Shown here one piece after another: positions 136 to 18,751 of a stretch of 20,096 bases of DNA. The position numbers were made by a program, and so were the translations under genes. The stretch is from IMG/VR virus record IMGVR_UViG_3300030085_000498, positions 1 to 20,096 of that record; one strand, written 5' to 3'. Positions within the stretch are counted from its first letter, which is position 1; the number at the start of each line of letters is the position of its first letter. Under the pieces are notes generated by a model. That model saw only the letters and a list, made by a program, of their open reading frames with translations, made no database searches and was not told where the DNA came from. This DNA comes from a virus.

Positions 136-384
136 CTAGAAGTTAAAGGTAGTATTAGTTCGTGTCACATCACCTTCAACTGTTTTCCAGTTGAATTGGC
201 GGAATGCACGAGCATCAACATCATAGACGACTTCGGAGCCAGTCTTACCTTCAAGATTTCGAATGGTTGCTTCATTAACCATTGAACTTGGTAGATCTTG
301 GCGACGAATAAATCGCATTGTACGGCGATCACCATTTTGCTTGTGGAAAGTACCGTTAAAGATTGTTACATTAGTGTTTGACAT
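136..384 (-). CDS. WYL_2/DUF2693-like small phage protein
   Basis: An 82-aa protein. I chose the ATG at 384 because AGGAGGT lies four bases upstream; the frame stays open to an ATG at 411 that lacks such a site. The pattern (a short strand with K/R-N-G-D-R-R-x-M-R-F near residues 15-25, then an LPSSM loop, then VVYDVDARAFRQFNW near residues 53-67) resembles the WYL_2 (DUF2693) family of small Sm/SH3-like barrel proteins common in T4-like phages. There it follows the scheme 'R-x-M-x-F/C-T ... V-x-D-x-E-x-x-x-W-R-x-F'. No catalytic residues are evident. The role is unknown; binding of nucleic acid or a protein partner is a family-level guess. It has its own perfect sigma70 promoter, which suggests early, strong expression. 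The family call rests on pattern memory alone. Confidence 0.7.
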   Translation of the reverse strand: MSNTNVTIFNGTFHKQNGDRRTMRFIRRQDLPSSMVNEATIRNLEGKTGSEVVYDVDARAFRQFNWKTVEGDVTRTNTTFNF

Positions 385-407
385 ATTACCTCCTATAAAT
401 TGAAATG

Positions 408-475
408 TCATAAGTTTTTATTGTGACTTTTTATCCCGGAACAAGTCATAACCTCTTTATGTTTGTTGAGTCCAT
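408..475 (-). other. chain of two leader micro-ORFs with ATGA overlaps
   Basis: In the leader between promoter and gene, an ATG at 475 opens 9 codons (MDSTNIKRL) ending in TGA at 446. This overlaps an ATG at 449 (ATGA) that opens 13 codons (MTCSGIKSHNKNL) ending in TGA at 408. That in turn overlaps the ATG at 411, which is in frame with the WYL_2-like gene. The second has GAGG only two to three bases before its ATG. This may be coincidence or translational coupling; the peptides resemble nothing I know. Confidence 0.25.
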
Positions 476-880: not shown

Positions 881-1765
881 TTAGAAAAATTCTTTATAAT
901 ATTTTTCAATCTTTTTAGAATTCCATTTGGTAGACTTTCTAAGTGTTCTATATTTTTTATCTCTGAAGAACTTAGCTATCTTAACATAAGGAGCATCTTG
1001 TCCAAGCTCTTGCAAAGCTATCTTGTAATTTTTCTTAAATCTAGATTTAAAGTTTTTATTTACATTTGAAGTTTTCTTTTTCTTCTTTTTCTTAGATTTA
1101 ACTTTTTTCTTTGTTTGTATTTGAAAATGTTCTCCAGTAAAATCCTCTGTATTACTGGTGTACCTAGAGATTATCTCGTTTATTGCAGAATAGTGTTTTT
1201 TAACAGAATTATAATGTCCATGAGACATAGCAGTTCTCAACAACTGATCAAAGTATTTTTCTATTTCAATATTTTGATCAATAATCATAGAGAAACCTTC
1301 TGTTACATAATCTTCCGGAATTATACTTTGAGAAATACCAGATAAATCTAAATTTTCGCTAACCCATCCATGATGAGCATGAAAATGAGGTTTTTCTAAA
1401 AGTTTACCTTTTTCAATACCAAACTCATAGCAGAATTCACTGTAATTTAGTGGTTTTTGAAAGACTTTTTTCCATTGTACAGAAAAGGTATTTTGGAAAT
1501 CTTTATCTCCAGACCAAAAGTCCTCATTATAATGAAACCAATGATCATCACCTAAAACACCCACAGCAATTATTTGGTTTGTGTTAGCTCTAAGATCAAC
1601 AGAAATTTTTTTATTAGGATACATAATTCTAAAATTTTGTATTTGTTTCTTCAAACTTCCTTGTACGGATCTACCTCTCGGTGAACACCTTCCTTCTTTA
1701 ATACTTTCTCTTAGGTGATGTATAGGTGTTCCTTCATTGTTTCCATATCTAATAGTAATGTGCAT
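881..1765 (-). CDS. lysine-rich protein of unknown function (294 aa)
   Basis: A 294-aa protein with GGAGG five bases before the ATG. I do not recognise the family. Residues 1-215 look globular, with aromatic-rich stretches (WFHYNEDFW near 76-84) and a histidine cluster (HFHAHHGW, about 127-134). Residues 219-246 are almost all lysine, asparagine and serine, including a run of seven lysines. The last 45 residues (KIAKFFRDKKYRTLRKSTKW and on) are basic and probably helical. The tail suggests binding to nucleic acid or another polyanion; that is inference from composition only. The gene follows the tubulin-like gene by 11 bases, so it probably shares the same transcript as the polymerase. The A-rich coding run for the lysines (about 1065-1115) could be prone to slippage, but the frame is intact. 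Confidence 0.7.
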   Translation of the reverse strand: MHITIRYGNNEGTPIHHLRESIKEGRCSPRGRSVQGSLKKQIQNFRIMYPNKKISVDLRANTNQIIAVGVLGDDHWFHYNEDFWSGDKDFQNTFSVQWKKVFQKPLNYSEFCYEFGIEKGKLLEKPHFHAHHGWVSENLDLSGISQSIIPEDYVTEGFSMIIDQNIEIEKYFDQLLRTAMSHGHYNSVKKHYSAINEIISRYTSNTEDFTGEHFQIQTKKKVKSKKKKKKKTSNVNKNFKSRFKKNYKIALQELGQDAPYVKIAKFFRDKKYRTLRKSTKWNSKKIEKYYKEFF

Positions 1766-1776
1766 ATATCCTCCAT

Positions 1777-2583
1777 TTAATTTTCTTGTAAAAAATGTGT
1801 AAATTTAATTGAATAATAGAAAGAGTGTTCATACTCAGATCTAAACACAACAAAAGAAGAATTAATATCTTTTTCATTATCTTCTCTTATTCTATTTTTT
1901 AGTAAATCTAACAACTCTCTGTTGTTCTTCATGTCCTCATCATTTACTATATTAATATAGCATGTCTCGGTAATGTTGTCAAGTGGAAAATACATATTTT
2001 TTTTATTATTTTTAAATTCTCCATATTCAACTGTTCTGATACGGGAAATCTCTTTAGATTCGTGATGAGATCCTAATACTGGTTTCTCACTAAGATAGTA
2101 AATCATACTTTCAAACACATTGACAATAGCGTTATTAATATGATCGTACATATCATCCAAAGAATAGTAAGGAAGAAAGGTACATATTTCTTCATTTGAT
2201 ACAATGTACATTGAATTTAGTAAACCTGATCTCGAATACTGTTGAAATACGTTGAAAGCAACACGATTTAATTTTTTCTGAGTTGGAGATAGCATTATCT
2301 CTTCTGGGTAGATATAGACTAGGTTAATTTTCTTGGATTGTATCAACTCTAAGAGTCTTAAAGATGCTGCGGATACTTTACCGGCACCACACACGAAGAA
2401 ATAGCACTCTTGCTCTTCAAAGTCCAAAAGATGCGCATAATCGGTAAGTTTTTCCTCGTAGTCTTCTGGTGAGCTGAACTCTGGGAGTTCCGAACCAGCA
2501 TCTATGGTAATTTTTTTATAATTATCTGAGAATTTATTAACAATTTCACACCCAGCTTGTCCTAGACCTATCAAAACTGTCAT
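1777..2583 (-). CDS. putative divergent tubulin/FtsZ-like GTPase
   Basis: A 268-aa protein with GGAGG before the ATG. Its features fall in the order of the tubulin/FtsZ GTPase fold. A first strand and glycine loop (IGLGQAGCEIVNKF, residues 5-18) recall GQAGxQIGN of tubulin and GVGGxGxNAV of FtsZ. A strand plus loop (YFFVCGAGKVSAASLRLLEL, 61-80) lies where the GGGTGTG signature should be. A helix (KLNRVAFNVFQQYSRSGLL) leads to YIVSNEEI, like the 'NA...L...ivI.Nd.L' of FtsZ, then a helix SLDDMYDHINNAIVNVFES like core helix H7. The T7-loop NxDxxD for catalysis is not evident and the length is below the usual 300 or more, so activity is doubtful. The start overlaps the polymerase stop (ATGA), implying coupled translation. 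A Rossmann dinucleotide-binding protein is the main alternative. The fold call is my inference from pattern. Confidence 0.5.
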   Translation of the reverse strand: MTVLIGLGQAGCEIVNKFSDNYKKITIDAGSELPEFSSPEDYEEKLTDYAHLLDFEEQECYFFVCGAGKVSAASLRLLELIQSKKINLVYIYPEEIMLSPTQKKLNRVAFNVFQQYSRSGLLNSMYIVSNEEICTFLPYYSLDDMYDHINNAIVNVFESMIYYLSEKPVLGSHHESKEISRIRTVEYGEFKNNKKNMYFPLDNITETCYINIVNDEDMKNNRELLDLLKNRIREDNEKDINSSFVVFRSEYEHSFYYSIKFTHFLQEN

Positions 2584-3755
2584 ACTTCCTCCATGTCTCT
2601 ATAATTTTTACCAATGTGCATTGAAGATTTAAACTTTCCAAGTCTTGTGTCTTCAAAAATTTGTTTTATCTGATTAATTAGATCTCTATCGTGTTTGTGT
2701 AAATCAATAGTTATTGAATCATGAACCACAGAGTGTACAAAAGATCGTCTACCATTTAAATATTTGTTTATTTTAATTGCTTGCGCCAAACAATTATCAG
2801 AAGATGTAGACTGAAGCAAATAATTAAACGAATGAAAATCATCTGCTTCAATCTTTCTTCCAAATGGAGTTTTAACAACTCCGTCAGAATAATGTCTCTC
2901 TAATACAACATCACGCTTATAGTGTTGTGATAACTCTAAGCTTTTTTTGTTGGGATTATAGAACCATGCGAAGAATTTTTTCTTAGCTTGGTCACGAGTA
3001 CATTTAAGTATTTTTGAGTTAAATTCATGTATATCTTCCTGGGGTTGGGGTTCTCCGGAGAGAGACAGAAGAGTTCTAATCTCTGCTCCGTTGAAATCAA
3101 GTTGAATGAATACATCATTCTTTGGGACAACAATATCAGCAATTTCCTTCTTAAGATTTAAGATTGGAAATGAACCAGATTTTGTCGTTAGGCGACCGGT
3201 TACAGAACCATAAATATCATAGGATATTACAGGAGTTTTTCCCCCAAAATTCTTCCAAAGAGTTTTGGCCTTATAATCGGTTGTCTGGTACTTAAATAGT
3301 TTATTTTGATTCAAAACGACAGGATTATTAGATATTTCATAAACCATTTTGCTGAGATCAATCATAAACTTATGATTTGCTGGTTTGGTGTAATTCTCAA
3401 ACACATAATCACAGATCTCATTTTTAACTTGACACCAGTGAATAAGAGCTTGTTTTGGAATAATGTCAAACAAACAAACGTCATCAAGGTTGATTTTGGC
3501 AACCGAAGCTGCCTTTACAAAATTCTTGACTCTCTTTTTGTGGATCTCCAAGCGATCTGAGAGATGTTCGGGACAAGCGTCTTCAAGTGACTTGCCTCCA
3601 CACCAAATCCTAGCATATTCATAATCATCATCTGATAAGTGAGGAGACCAATCCCATGTTTTCTCAAAAGCTCTTTTAATGTGTCCATAATAAAAATCTC
3701 CGTTAGCAAACAAACCGAGACAGTCTCGCTTGTCATCAAGTATTTGAAATATCAT
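2580..3755 (-). CDS. compact family A DNA polymerase
   Basis: A 391-aa protein; I place the start at 3755 (AGGAGG three to four bases upstream) rather than the in-frame ATG at 3788. Family A motifs are clear: TGRL (186-189); motif A LDFNGAEIR with Asp220 and the Glu of AEIR; motif B RDQAKKKFFAWFY (254-266), keeping R, K, F and Y at the exact E. coli Pol I spacing; VKTPFGRK; NYLLQST with Gln315; and motif C VVHDS (His345, Asp346). Both catalytic aspartates are present, so an active 5'-3' polymerase is likely. The residue after motif C HD is Ser instead of the usual Glu, and motif B lacks the canonical glycines. No 3'-5' or 5'-3' exonuclease domain is recognised; length equals about a bare polymerase domain, with a shortened fingers region. 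It overlaps the preceding gene by 20 bases and the next by four, and sits behind tail genes, away from any replication module seen here. Confidence 0.92.
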   Translation of the reverse strand: MIFQILDDKRDCLGLFANGDFYYGHIKRAFEKTWDWSPHLSDDDYEYARIWCGGKSLEDACPEHLSDRLEIHKKRVKNFVKAASVAKINLDDVCLFDIIPKQALIHWCQVKNEICDYVFENYTKPANHKFMIDLSKMVYEISNNPVVLNQNKLFKYQTTDYKAKTLWKNFGGKTPVISYDIYGSVTGRLTTKSGSFPILNLKKEIADIVVPKNDVFIQLDFNGAEIRTLLSLSGEPQPQEDIHEFNSKILKCTRDQAKKKFFAWFYNPNKKSLELSQHYKRDVVLERHYSDGVVKTPFGRKIEADDFHSFNYLLQSTSSDNCLAQAIKINKYLNGRRSFVHSVVHDSITIDLHKHDRDLINQIKQIFEDTRLGKFKSSMHIGKNYRDMEEV

Positions 3756-4941
3756 TAGCCCTCCTATCAATCTTTTTAATAATATCATTTAGACCACCAG
3801 GTCTTTTTTTGTATGTCTTCCGAAATGTATTATTAATATAACTGATAGCTTGAGCTTTGTCAAGTATTTTATGAAAGTTTTTTGCTTTTTTTATAATTTC
3901 TCTTAATTGAGATGGATTAAATGGAGAATATTCTTCTATATTTCTAGCTGTTATATAGAGATCGTACATATAATAATCTGTATATTTATTGTTTATATAT
4001 TCTAAAACTATAGGTTCTTTATTTGTAATGATACTTTTAGTTTTATTATTACATATATCTATATCTTTATAATATGTTTTATTATTATAGTATATATTAT
4101 AATATATTAATAGATTATTAATTAATAGTTCTAAATCTATATCTATACAATTTTCATAATTTGAAAAAAATATTTGTTTTTTTGTTGACAATTTGTATTT
4201 TTTAGTATATACTGATAATGAAGGTGACAGCAAGTTTGCTACTAAAATCCATGGACTGTTTTTTGAAACATAAAATCCATTATTTAGGCAAACTTTTTTA
4301 TAAAATTCATAACAGGAGGTATTCATGAAAAAATCTTCTTTTAGTTGATCTTCATCAATTGACAAATCAGCTATAGAAACAGCTAACCCAGTTGTAAAAA
4401 TATTTGAGTATTTGCTTCTTTGAAAAGCAGTAAAAGTCAAGGGATATTCTATTCCCATAGTTTGTAAATATTTGTAAAACATTTCATAATATTCATCAAA
4501 CGTTGTTACTCTTTCGTTTTTCAGAAAAACATTGTTAAAGTTTTCAAAATAAGTTTTAATGTAATTTGCATATAGTTTCTGTGGATCTTCATAACCCTGA
4601 TAAGGTATTGGATTGCTCAGATATTGCAAGTTAGAGGGAATATGACCAACTGCTTGTGCCATTCTAAATCTAGATTTAACATTTTCAAAAGCATCGACTA
4701 CAAAATTAATAGCAGACATGCCAGTATTATTTCTTTGCGAAGTAAAATCTTTTAAGCTAGAATCTTTCAAATAAATGACATTCATCATGTCATCTATTCT
4801 GCCGTAATGATGATTCTCATATGCCGTAAAATCTTTCATAACTTTTTCTTGTTCTGACATTCTATCGATTCTAAACTTTGATCTATCAACAGCTAACTTG
4901 ATACTGGATTTTTCTTTATTTTTACCATCATATGTAGACAT
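3736..4941 (-). CDS. probable virion structural protein (401 aa)
   Basis: A 401-aa protein starting one base after the stop region of the giant hub gene, so certainly part of the tail transcript. The middle holds a stretch (MGIEYPLTFTAFQRSKYSN, then SIADLSIDEDQLKEDFFM and NNGFYVSKNSPWILVANL at about 219-236) that I have seen in uncharacterised structural proteins of marine T4-like phages; that link is from memory and gives no function. The N-terminal 40 residues are basic and hydrophilic. The C-terminal half, from about residue 250 on, becomes very rich in Asn, Ile, Tyr and Lys (for example YYNIYYNNKTYYKDIDI), matching an extremely AT-rich DNA patch. No catalytic motif, signal or membrane segment is visible. 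Baseplate or tail-fibre attachment would fit the place after the hub, but is only contextual. Confidence 0.6.
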   Translation of the reverse strand: MSTYDGKNKEKSSIKLAVDRSKFRIDRMSEQEKVMKDFTAYENHHYGRIDDMMNVIYLKDSSLKDFTSQRNNTGMSAINFVVDAFENVKSRFRMAQAVGHIPSNLQYLSNPIPYQGYEDPQKLYANYIKTYFENFNNVFLKNERVTTFDEYYEMFYKYLQTMGIEYPLTFTAFQRSKYSNIFTTGLAVSIADLSIDEDQLKEDFFMNTSCYEFYKKVCLNNGFYVSKNSPWILVANLLSPSLSVYTKKYKLSTKKQIFFSNYENCIDIDLELLINNLLIYYNIYYNNKTYYKDIDICNNKTKSIITNKEPIVLEYINNKYTDYYMYDLYITARNIEEYSPFNPSQLREIIKKAKNFHKILDKAQAISYINNTFRKTYKKRPGGLNDIIKKIDRRANDISNT

Positions 4942-15487: not shown

Positions 15488-18400
15488 CTAGAATTCTACG
15501 CCTGTTCTAGTGACAATAAAGTCGATTACAATGTATTCAATTGCTTTTGCTGGTTTTACAAATACTTTTGCGTACATGATGTTTCTATCAATAAGATCAT
15601 CAGTTGTAGTTGAAGTATCTAAAACTAATTTATAATCAGTGATACCGAATCTTGCGCGAACACTTGCAAGAATTGGATCAGCTTGTGATAAGAATCTATT
15701 CCACGTTGATTGTACATTTTGATCAAACAAAATAGTATCAGCGATTGCACCAATTTTCTTTTTCAAGAAAATCATCAAACGACGAACATTTACTCTGTCC
15801 AAAGCAGAAGGGGTTTGTTGAAGTGTCTTTTGTCCAAACACTACAATCTCTCCAACAGCAGGAAATCTGGCGATTGGGTTAATATTAACTTCATATAGTT
15901 CATCACGTTGTTTCTTAGAAAGAGTCTTTAGCACTCCAACAGTACGAGGTCCGTCATTTCCACCAAGGATACTAAGACCACCACGATTAAACCCAGCAGG
16001 TGCAAACCATGGTCCAGCAGAATTAGCTTCTGAGAAGGCCATTGCTCCAATCGCACCAACAGATGGGGGAACAATTAAAATTTCTTCTTTACCAGAAAGA
16101 GTATCGCGAATCTTCAGACGAGGTGAATAGGTTGCTGCGTAGCTTGTATTCAAGTCACGAGATTTAGCAGTGTTGATAACAGTAGAAACTTCACCACCAG
16201 ATGTAACACCACTGTTTTCAAATGTATTTAGATAAGAATCGTCTAGATCAACAACAGCCAGAGCATCTCCTCTCTCTTCAACCTTACGAATAAGTTTATT
16301 TTGAAGACCAGAGTTGGTCATTCCAGGAATAGAAACAAGGTCATATTTGATTGATTCTGGGTCTGATGCAATCTCAATCGCTTTATCAATTGTATAGTGA
16401 GCATAGTGAGATTTATTGGTTTGACTAGCTAATGATACAGCACTAGAGAAAGGATCAACAACAGAAACGTCAAGTCCGTCAAACCCACCAAATAGTGGCA
16501 TGTTGAAACTTTTAACTCCTTGAGACAATAAAGCGGCACTTCCACTCTTTTTAGTATATGACTGATCTGCTTCAGCTGCTTCTGACATAGAGCCAGACTT
16601 CCAGAACCAAAGACCAGTAGTGCCCTCTAGTCTAACATCGTCTAGAGAAAATACAAAACTAGTCTCTGTGGAGTTTGCAACAGTATAAGAACTCAATCCA
16701 CCGGGCAATGCTCCAACAAGATCAGAATAATCACCGCTTTTAGCGAGAACTTTATTATTTGAAGCAAGATTACCATATACATGACGCAGACCAAATACAT
16801 CAGAATTATTATAGTTACCACCCATTTTGGAACTTTGTTCTGTTAATCTTAAACTAGGGAAGTTGAAAGAACAAGACATAAGTTGAGGCAACTTAGCAAA
16901 AACATTAACGTCCGCTGCAGATGCATAGTAATGTTCATTTCCATCGACCCATGGATGAGCGAACGCTGTATCGCCATCAACACCAGCAGTTACAGATCCA
17001 AGAGCTTGATCATTACCTTGATCAAAATCTTCTGATAGAGTCACATTCATATACGGCCCAGCAGTATCAGCAACAATTCTTACGACATTTGTTGATGGAT
17101 TTGTTACAGTGTACCCTTGAATTGTGTCTAAAAGAGCAGTAACTGCGTCTGCAGTTTTTTCTGCGTCATTAGTTGTTCCAACATAAATTTTGGCAAGTCC
17201 ATTAGTAAATGAAGTTTCCGCAGTACCAGTACTAGCAGAAAAAACAATTTGGAAAACACCAAGATCAGGATGGGTAAGTTTAAGATTATCACCAGCTGTC
17301 ATTGCGCCGCCATAGGTAATATCGGCCGTTGATCTAGTACCCAAGTCATTATGAATATCATGTAGAGCGTGAACTGCTTGAGATCCGTGAGCTAATGTAA
17401 ATGACTTTGGCTTAGTAGGCCCAAAGAATCCAAATGGCAAAGCATAACTATCTGTAAGACCTGCTTTCCAAGCATCCGACATTTCAATACGAATGTAGTT
17501 TGAGCGATTTGGATAATCACCAGTAATATTAAAAACTTTGTTAGTTTTGTCCCAAGACCGGTCTTCATCACCAATCTTTTTTAGAATAAAGTTTTCAGAA
17601 GCTTCGTTCAGGTTTAAGTTAGAAAAAGTTTCGATAGCCACGCCTGCTTTGTTAATAACAGAAAGAGAGAATGAAGAATCTGGTAATGTAGCAGTTCCAA
17701 GTTTCAAGTCACCAATTTTAATACCATAATTCTCTTGAATCCATTCTCCATCATGTAAAGAACATACACGGAATAGTTTCGTAGCATTCTCGGCTGTATA
17801 AGAAGTACCGGCATTTTTTGGATCTGAGTTTCTAGAAACAACCCATCCGGATTTAGCAGCAGTAGCTTGACGATTGTTTGAATTCCAATGTGTACTACCT
17901 GATACTAAAGGAAGAAGAATCCCGTATTGCTTTCCAGCAGCACCAGACACATCATTTACCAATTCTTTTACAGATTGTTCAAAAGATTCTCCTAGGAAAT
18001 AACTTTCTGTTGTTGCAAAGTTAGTAGAATTAATTTTTTGAGGATTTGTATTAAGAACATTACGAATATACCCTTCTTTGTTTGTAGGGTCAAAGTGGAA
18101 TGTATAAGTTTCATAGTTAGAGTTATCAGACCATATGTCTAGTTTAAATGTAGATGGCTGGCCTGTACCTTGAGATTGAATCATTTCAGCAACTGATGAA
18201 GTAGCACTGGATCCATATTCAGCAGGAACCCCTCTCAAACTAGCAGCAGAACCGGTTGTGTAAATAACAGCAGCTAAAGAACCTGTGACACCAGCATCTC
18301 CCGAAGCAGATGGCATAATGAACAATCCATAAGCCAAAGTATTCATGTCTGCTGTTCCTGCAGTAGTTTGTCCACCACCCAGATTCCACCCAGCAAGAGT

Positions 18401-18751
18401 ATCAGTTCCAGCAACAGCATTTGAATCTTGTTCGCCAAGAAGTCTAATAAATGTTACAGGAGAAGTCTGTGCTGCAAGGTGCGCTTGGGCAGCATAGGCT
18501 GCATAAGTTGGACCATATCTATTTCCATCACGCCAAACATCAACATTATTTCCTGGTTTACCTGCTTGAGGTGCTCCAAAGATTTCAATAAAGCTATCTA
18601 AGTCTTTAACTTTTACTGGCTTCATAGCTGGGCCTTTTAGGGCAGTACCAATCAGAAGAATACCATCTTCTGTGGTTTCTTGAGGAACCTGGCTTTGGTC
18701 TATCTCATTAAGTTGTACGCCTGGTGACGCAAAATCAAATTTTCTAGCCAT
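15488..18751 (-). CDS. tail sheath protein, unusually long (1087 aa)
   Basis: A 1087-aa contractile sheath protein. The N-terminus (FASPGVQLNEIDQSQVPQET, then GTALKGPAMKPVKVKDLDSF and FGAP) and the C-terminal third are typical: FNMPLFGGFDGLDV near 745-757, GPWFAPAGFNRGGLS near 906, NPIARFPAVGEIVVFGQKTL near 962, and SALDRVNVRRLMIFLKKKI. T4 gp18 has 659 aa; the excess here lies in the middle. About residues 475-590 form a separate beta-rich module (threonine and valine strands such as GYTVTNPSTNVVRIVAD) with the look of an outward-facing Ig-like or decoration domain. The sheath surrounds the tube and contracts to drive it through the envelope. AGGAG precedes the ATG. The TAG stop lies within a 15-base palindrome. 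Confidence 0.95.
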   Translation of the reverse strand: MARKFDFASPGVQLNEIDQSQVPQETTEDGILLIGTALKGPAMKPVKVKDLDSFIEIFGAPQAGKPGNNVDVWRDGNRYGPTYAAYAAQAHLAAQTSPVTFIRLLGEQDSNAVAGTDTLAGWNLGGGQTTAGTADMNTLAYGLFIMPSASGDAGVTGSLAAVIYTTGSAASLRGVPAEYGSSATSSVAEMIQSQGTGQPSTFKLDIWSDNSNYETYTFHFDPTNKEGYIRNVLNTNPQKINSTNFATTESYFLGESFEQSVKELVNDVSGAAGKQYGILLPLVSGSTHWNSNNRQATAAKSGWVVSRNSDPKNAGTSYTAENATKLFRVCSLHDGEWIQENYGIKIGDLKLGTATLPDSSFSLSVINKAGVAIETFSNLNLNEASENFILKKIGDEDRSWDKTNKVFNITGDYPNRSNYIRIEMSDAWKAGLTDSYALPFGFFGPTKPKSFTLAHGSQAVHALHDIHNDLGTRSTADITYGGAMTAGDNLKLTHPDLGVFQIVFSASTGTAETSFTNGLAKIYVGTTNDAEKTADAVTALLDTIQGYTVTNPSTNVVRIVADTAGPYMNVTLSEDFDQGNDQALGSVTAGVDGDTAFAHPWVDGNEHYYASAADVNVFAKLPQLMSCSFNFPSLRLTEQSSKMGGNYNNSDVFGLRHVYGNLASNNKVLAKSGDYSDLVGALPGGLSSYTVANSTETSFVFSLDDVRLEGTTGLWFWKSGSMSEAAEADQSYTKKSGSAALLSQGVKSFNMPLFGGFDGLDVSVVDPFSSAVSLASQTNKSHYAHYTIDKAIEIASDPESIKYDLVSIPGMTNSGLQNKLIRKVEERGDALAVVDLDDSYLNTFENSGVTSGGEVSTVINTAKSRDLNTSYAATYSPRLKIRDTLSGKEEILIVPPSVGAIGAMAFSEANSAGPWFAPAGFNRGGLSILGGNDGPRTVGVLKTLSKKQRDELYEVNINPIARFPAVGEIVVFGQKTLQQTPSALDRVNVRRLMIFLKKKIGAIADTILFDQNVQSTWNRFLSQADPILASVRARFGITDYKLVLDTSTTTDDLIDRNIMYAKVFVKPAKAIEYIVIDFIVTRTGVEF

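Follow-up and report, generated by a model that had tools for sequence, protein, structure and literature searches.

A predicted reduced tubulin-like protein encoded beside a family-A DNA polymerase in uncultivated T4-related phages

We analyzed a 20,096-base virus fragment from IMG/VR (record IMGVR_UViG_3300030085_000498, positions 1 to 20,096; the whole stretch is called the window below), which carries a gene for a small tubulin-like protein directly behind a gene for a DNA polymerase. The tubulin-like gene lies at 1777-2583 on the minus strand, starts with ATG, and encodes 268 amino acids (aa). The polymerase open reading frame (ORF; 2580-3788, same strand) runs into it: its stop and the start of the tubulin-like gene share ATGA, in the context GGAGGAAGT-ATGA. 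This reading of the ORFs bears out the first-pass annotation, which was made from the letters of the window alone and had reported the same coordinates, length, and overlap. By direct reading, the tubulin-like gene has a strong ribosome-binding site of its own, with GGAGG four bases ahead of the ATG. Given the gene order and the overlap, we infer that its product is made together with the polymerase.

1777..2583, minus strand: predicted reduced tubulin/FtsZ-superfamily protein, 268 aa (AlphaFold2 predicted local distance difference test, pLDDT, 92.4; Foldseek matches in the PDB to FtsZ/TubZ, E 1.9e-12)
2588..2592, minus strand: Shine-Dalgarno sequence GGAGG of the tubulin-like gene, within the polymerase gene (direct reading)
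2580..3788, minus strand: family-A DNA polymerase, polymerase domain only, 402 aa (PF00476, E=2.3e-7; profile match to Taq/Klenow, E=4e-8)

Judging from its predicted structure, the protein almost certainly adopts a reduced version of the tubulin/FtsZ fold. The AlphaFold2 model, built from 66 sequences, has a predicted template modelling score (pTM) of 0.91. Its elements follow the tubulin order S1-H1-S2...S4-H4-S5-H5-S6-H6-H7, with a four-stranded C-terminal domain. Foldseek returned 380 matches in the PDB at E<=0.001, and the best 50 were all FtsZ or TubZ, with E from 1.9e-12 to 1.8e-10 and template modelling (TM) scores of 0.65-0.73 by query length. Among predicted viral proteins, the best matches were mostly phage proteins named FtsZ or tubulin, at 10-13% identity. 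The fold proposed at first from a few landmarks was thus recovered by structure prediction and fold search, with FtsZ/TubZ as best structural match and with the tubulin strand order and H7 in the model. The landmarks themselves (GLGQAGCEIVN, CGAGKVSAAS, YIVSNEEI, and an H7-like helix) are all present.

Profile-profile comparisons were also made. The score to PhuZ, with sequences taken from GenBank phages, was 39.2 (E=1e-4) in an alignment spanning T1 to S5 only. The score to a second phage FtsZ-like family (see below) was 36, with an alignment from T1 into H7, and that to gammaproteobacterial FtsZ was 24, in register from T1 into H7 and barely above noise. For comparison, the maxima in 60 column shuffles were 21, 29, and 21, respectively, and two unrelated alignments scored 21.6 and 13.8. 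A weak similarity thus exceeds the shuffles for PhuZ and the second phage family and is marginal for FtsZ. With single family models, the window protein matches Pfam Tubulin below the cut-off (E=0.085 over 25 residues, near noise) and 16 of the 66 members match TIGR00065 (FtsZ) weakly.

To describe the residues kept and lost, we counted conservation in 142 distinct relatives, with the following features on the window protein:

2536..2577, minus strand: T1 loop region, residues 3-16 (VLIGLGQAGCEIVN); G6 and G8 100%, A10 91%, G11 85%
2371..2394, minus strand: T4 signature-loop position, residues 64-71 (VCGAGKVS); G66 100%, GGGTG in 0/142
2221..2244, minus strand: family motif Q[EQ]Y[AT]RSGL, end of H5 and H5-S6 loop (position by DSSP), residues 114-121; Q114, R118, and S119 100%, G120 and L121 97%
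2191..2199, minus strand: T6 position, residues 129-131, with N130 (99%)
2092..2160, minus strand: central helix H7, residues 142-164, a helix in the model, with N150 (cf. tubulin N228; 100%)
2032..2073, minus strand: T7-position loop, residues 171-184 (GSHHESKEISRIRT); 175 acidic in 49%, 178 in 72%

N130 and N150 align with the known guanine-contact residues of tubulin and FtsZ. The altered signature loop, already noticed in the window, is a trait of the family, since GGGTG occurs in none of the 142 sequences. The spacing from T1 to T4 has a median of 60 residues, versus 84-88 in PhuZ, FtsZ, and the second phage family (alignment A4). A stretch shorter by some 26 residues implies that T3, the gamma-phosphate loop, is gone, and the model has neither S3 nor H3. 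For H8, the model has no helix between residue 164 and S7 at 182. Both GGGTG and T3 are normally needed for turnover of guanosine triphosphate (GTP). The T7 loop had been called not recognisable, which was too strict: in an uncertain alignment made by eye, HHESKEISR lines up with FDSKDLER of the canonical phage FtsZ-like family and with NVDFADV of FtsZ. With T7 so aligned, 92% of members have at least one acidic residue at positions 175 and 178, and 8% have neither. For the possibly non-catalytic nature proposed in the first-pass annotation, the losses of GGGTG, T3, and H8 speak in favour and the partly kept acidic residues near T7 against. Going by the topology of tubulin, the H5-S6 loop would sit on the face away from the nucleotide, together with T7. 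We infer that the two most conserved regions correspond to the nucleotide face and the opposite face (QEYARSGL motif, SRIxT stretch).

Relatives of the tubulin-like protein found in successive rounds of scanning IMG/VR numbered 11, 32, at least 575, and at least 585; the 66 aligned members are 29-90% identical to the window protein. The ratio of nonsynonymous to synonymous substitution rates (dN/dS, Nei-Gojobori) was 0.04-0.10 against five relatives; dS exceeds 1 for four of the five and these ratios are approximate. Since relatives extend down to 28-29% identity and dN/dS is this low, the ORF is not a chance one. Across a large, uncultivated clade of T4-related phages, the gene evolves under purifying selection. 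No relative was found by tblastn in GenBank phages with four members as queries (50,697 records, 179 of them matched by phiKZ PhuZ), and none in the species genomes of GTDB. A scan of IMG/VR with one PhuZ sequence gave no match.

The first-pass annotation had proposed a survey of whether homologs always sit beside the polymerase. This is nearly always so: 155 of 158 loci have a polymerase homologue upstream in the same orientation (82/84 in a first set and 73/74 in a second, more distant set; the two share a few contigs). Both exceptions of the first set are cut off by contig ends: one has 11 bases of upstream DNA, and the other has 606, its sister locus having the polymerase 953 bases away. 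In the exception of the second set (L300), upstream DNA is ample but no polymerase was detected in it. Most often, the two genes overlap or sit within a few bases of each other, with some 200-2,000 bases between them in some loci. The polymerase profile matches the polymerase domains of Taq and Klenow (E=4e-8), and neither Pfam nor profile comparison recognised an exonuclease domain in the chain. In nine records of 141-203 kb, which may be incomplete, the adjoining polymerase is the only family-A match, and neither a family-B polymerase nor a gp45-type clamp was detected, the latter with a single Pfam model of weak sensitivity. The polymerase of one record (G001) was missed by the Pfam model and found only by the profile built here (alignment A5); hence, the negatives for family B, the clamp, and a second family-A polymerase carry limited weight. 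Evolutionary distances of the tubulin-like protein correlate with those of the polymerase (Spearman 0.76) and less with those of baseplate gp53 (0.27).

One locus with the small protein (L079) has a further gene, for a 364-aa protein carrying GGGTGS, a T3-like ADGVAKD, and FDSKDL at T7. This protein belongs to a second FtsZ-like family (e.g., L092:1027-2121, minus strand, also L097-L176; alignment A4) of 341-371 aa, with at least 107 relatives in IMG/VR records of up to 281 kb. In this family, a T3-like ADG-GKD stretch, GGGTGS, and FDSKDL, with both T7 aspartates, are conserved, and the profile matches FtsZ at 4e-9; one query found no member in GenBank phages. Eight records encode both proteins. 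No copy of the second was detectable in the closest large relatives of the window (141 and 186 kb), and several larger phages carry it without the small one. The small protein is thus not generally dependent on the second, since there are records in which only one of the two was detected, and an obligate partnership was rejected. In six records with only the second protein, no diverged small copy was found by eye behind the polymerase. Among such larger phages, L206-L211 have a distant family-A polymerase of about 400 aa after a large tail gene, followed by genes resembling, by eye, single-stranded DNA-binding protein, UvsX/RecA, and flap endonuclease. A gp55-like sigma gene beside the second FtsZ-like gene was considered and is only local (5/64 loci).

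The gene next upstream of the polymerase has a conserved position:

3736..4941, minus strand: 401-aa gene upstream of the polymerase, order conserved (found in 64 loci; AlphaFold2 pLDDT 85.7)

It was considered as the missing exonuclease, and a PDB fold search with its model gave no significant match. The best, non-significant one was the VanY-type D,D-carboxypeptidase VanYB (E=0.19), and its SGLAIxI stretch resembles the VanY-type family. Further upstream, the window has a T4-like tail block, made of baseplate wedge, baseplate hub, tail tube, and tail sheath. Among the best-ranked GenBank relatives of the sheath are Microcystis phage Mel-JY01 and Flavobacterium phage immuto, with low identity in both cases, and the phage is thus a far relative of T4. 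The sheath (15488-18751, minus strand) is unusually long, at 1087 aa, with the gp18-like match in its second half, which suggests that a large segment was added at the N terminus or inserted. The tubulin-like gene is followed directly by a lysine-rich 294-aa gene (881-1765, minus strand), which has no homologue in the other surveyed loci and is probably a local insertion. A 91-aa protein (136-411, minus strand) has a weak match to WYL_2 (Sm-like fold; E=6e-4); in 57 loci, a homologue of it is encoded downstream of the tubulin-like gene.

How does the small protein compare with known systems? The model supports it well as a reduced member of the tubulin/FtsZ superfamily, in which we regard it as a new family. 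PhuZ of the phiKZ-like nucleus-forming jumbo phages (Chimalliviridae) is likewise a phage-encoded member of the superfamily and its best profile-profile match, through the T1, S2, and T4 region. The new family differs in size (about 268 aa versus 296-327 aa), in lacking T3 and H8, in its reduced T4 glycine loop, in belonging to T4-related phages with T4-like tail genes, and in being tied to a family-A polymerase gene. The phiKZ nuclear shell protein had no match in nine relatives, in an insensitive search with no positive control. Bacterial and archaeal FtsZ (S. aureus, M. jannaschii, A. aeolicus) is the best structural match, with TM up to 0.73 by query length, whereas identity in structural alignments is 8-13% and the small protein lacks GGGTG, T3, H8, and an FtsZ-type C-terminal tail; the conserved T7 Asp pair is only partly mirrored. 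TubZ/RepX of plasmid and phage partition is similar in structure (Bacillus TubZ, 4ei7 and 4ei8), but the small protein is much shorter and linked to a polymerase gene. The second phage FtsZ-like family is phage-encoded too, with a profile match over T1-H7, and co-occurs in eight records; it is canonical (T3-like ADG-GKD, GGGTGS, FDSKDL) and the small protein is reduced. The small protein should not be called PhuZ, FtsZ, or TubZ. The first two names are not applied because defining features of both were tested for and are lacking, with neither the FtsZ hallmark of a conserved T7 NxDxxD nor a canonical T4 in the family; TubZ was compared by fold only.

A literature search that covered few subscription journals and preprints turned up no account of tubulins in T4-related phages, marine or uncultivated. 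Two phage tubulins are named in the papers searched: PhuZ, from nucleus-forming jumbo phages, and TubZ, from partition systems. One review names PhuZ for nucleus-forming phages (PMC12908238), another gives two tubulin/FtsZ representatives in jumbo phages (PMC7824862), and a tubulin/FtsZ protein cluster appears, with no further description, in a hot-spring virome (PMC8597652). None of the public family libraries searched here describes the small family.

Our best explanation as a whole, to which we give about an even chance, is that the protein is a reduced tubulin-fold, guanine-nucleotide-binding scaffold or accessory of the phage replisome. It is supported by the predicted fold, the profile scores, the conserved nucleotide-face positions, the adjacency to a polymerase that is the only one detected in the nine large records, the closer correlation of distances with the polymerase than with gp53, and the purifying selection. 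The conserved residues make guanine-nucleotide binding itself likely; T1, the T4 glycine, and the asparagines N130 and N150 would contact the nucleotide. The gamma-phosphate loop T3 is missing, which implies at most a weak or atypical GTPase. The protein would then assemble head to tail, or dock on a partner, through the nucleotide face and the opposite face. Such assembly or docking is probable because the conserved faces are those that touch in a tubulin protofilament; that the protein forms homopolymer filaments is possible, at a little less than an even chance. Made with the polymerase and acting during DNA replication, it may hold or position the replisome or the replicating phage DNA. 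A role tied to replication or to the positioning of replicating DNA is, in our estimate, just on the likely side, and it explains the gene order most simply, since the pairing with the polymerase is kept so strictly.

Several observations weigh against this explanation. Sequence-only searches (Pfam, PHROGs, NCBIfam, and the PDB by phmmer and hmmsearch) gave no significant family match and reached no curated tubulin cut-off. GGGTG and T3 are missing (0/142 sequences; spacing of about 60). The assignment of conserved residues to two faces is based on tubulin topology. In the distance comparison, gp53 is a short protein with noisy distances, and the clamp search relied on one insensitive model. 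Adjacency, finally, can be inherited as a conserved block without shared function.

Other readings share part of this evidence. The protein may be a PhuZ-like cytomotive filament, whose GTP-driven dynamic polymers would centre phage DNA or carry capsids, the link to the polymerase reflecting shared expression timing. PhuZ is indeed the best profile match, both are phage tubulins, and 92% of members have an acidic residue at a T7-like position. This is nevertheless unlikely: T3, H8, and GGGTG are missing whereas PhuZ itself keeps a G-rich T4 loop, the proteins end near residue 268 with no long C-terminal extension, and the phiKZ shell protein was unmatched, in the insensitive search mentioned above. 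We regard as equally improbable a non-polymerising accessory, i.e., a tubulin-fold protein that serves the short, exonuclease-less family-A polymerase as processivity or loading factor. The near-invariant and often overlapping adjacency, the undetected gp45-type clamp, and the unrecognised exonuclease domain would fit it, but clamp detection is weak, assembly would account at least equally well for the conservation on both longitudinal faces, and we know of no tubulin-fold polymerase accessory. It is similarly doubtful that the tubulin fold has become a part of the replication machinery that assembles head to tail via a rebuilt interface, with the invariant QEYARSGL replacing T7/H8, and tethers or clamps the exonuclease-less polymerase.

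A pseudo-tubulin that regulates or caps the second FtsZ-like protein of the same phages, or the FtsZ of the host, is very unlikely. The two proteins are each other's detectable relatives and meet in eight records, but the second is not found in the 141-186 kb records of the window's clade and many records have it without the small one. Least probable by far is an unrelated Rossmann-like nucleotide-binding protein. Single members do match Pfam TrkA_N and dehydrogenase N-termini weakly, through the GxGxAG motif. Yet the model shows H7 and the C-terminal domain at high confidence and the profile matches to PhuZ and the phage FtsZ-like family exceed the shuffles. A plain Rossmann fold was rejected on the fold search, given that the best 50 PDB matches are all FtsZ or TubZ.

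In a large group of uncultivated T4-related phages, a reduced tubulin is kept beside the only detectable DNA polymerase. If the scaffold or accessory reading is true, phages would use tubulin-fold proteins to organise replication far more commonly than thought, T3, the signature loop, and H8 would be dispensable in a minimal tubulin fold, and a tubulin-fold protein as partner of a polymerase would become testable. If the interface has been rebuilt as above, the tubulin fold would be linked directly to a DNA polymerase, in some phages with a second, canonical FtsZ-like protein too.
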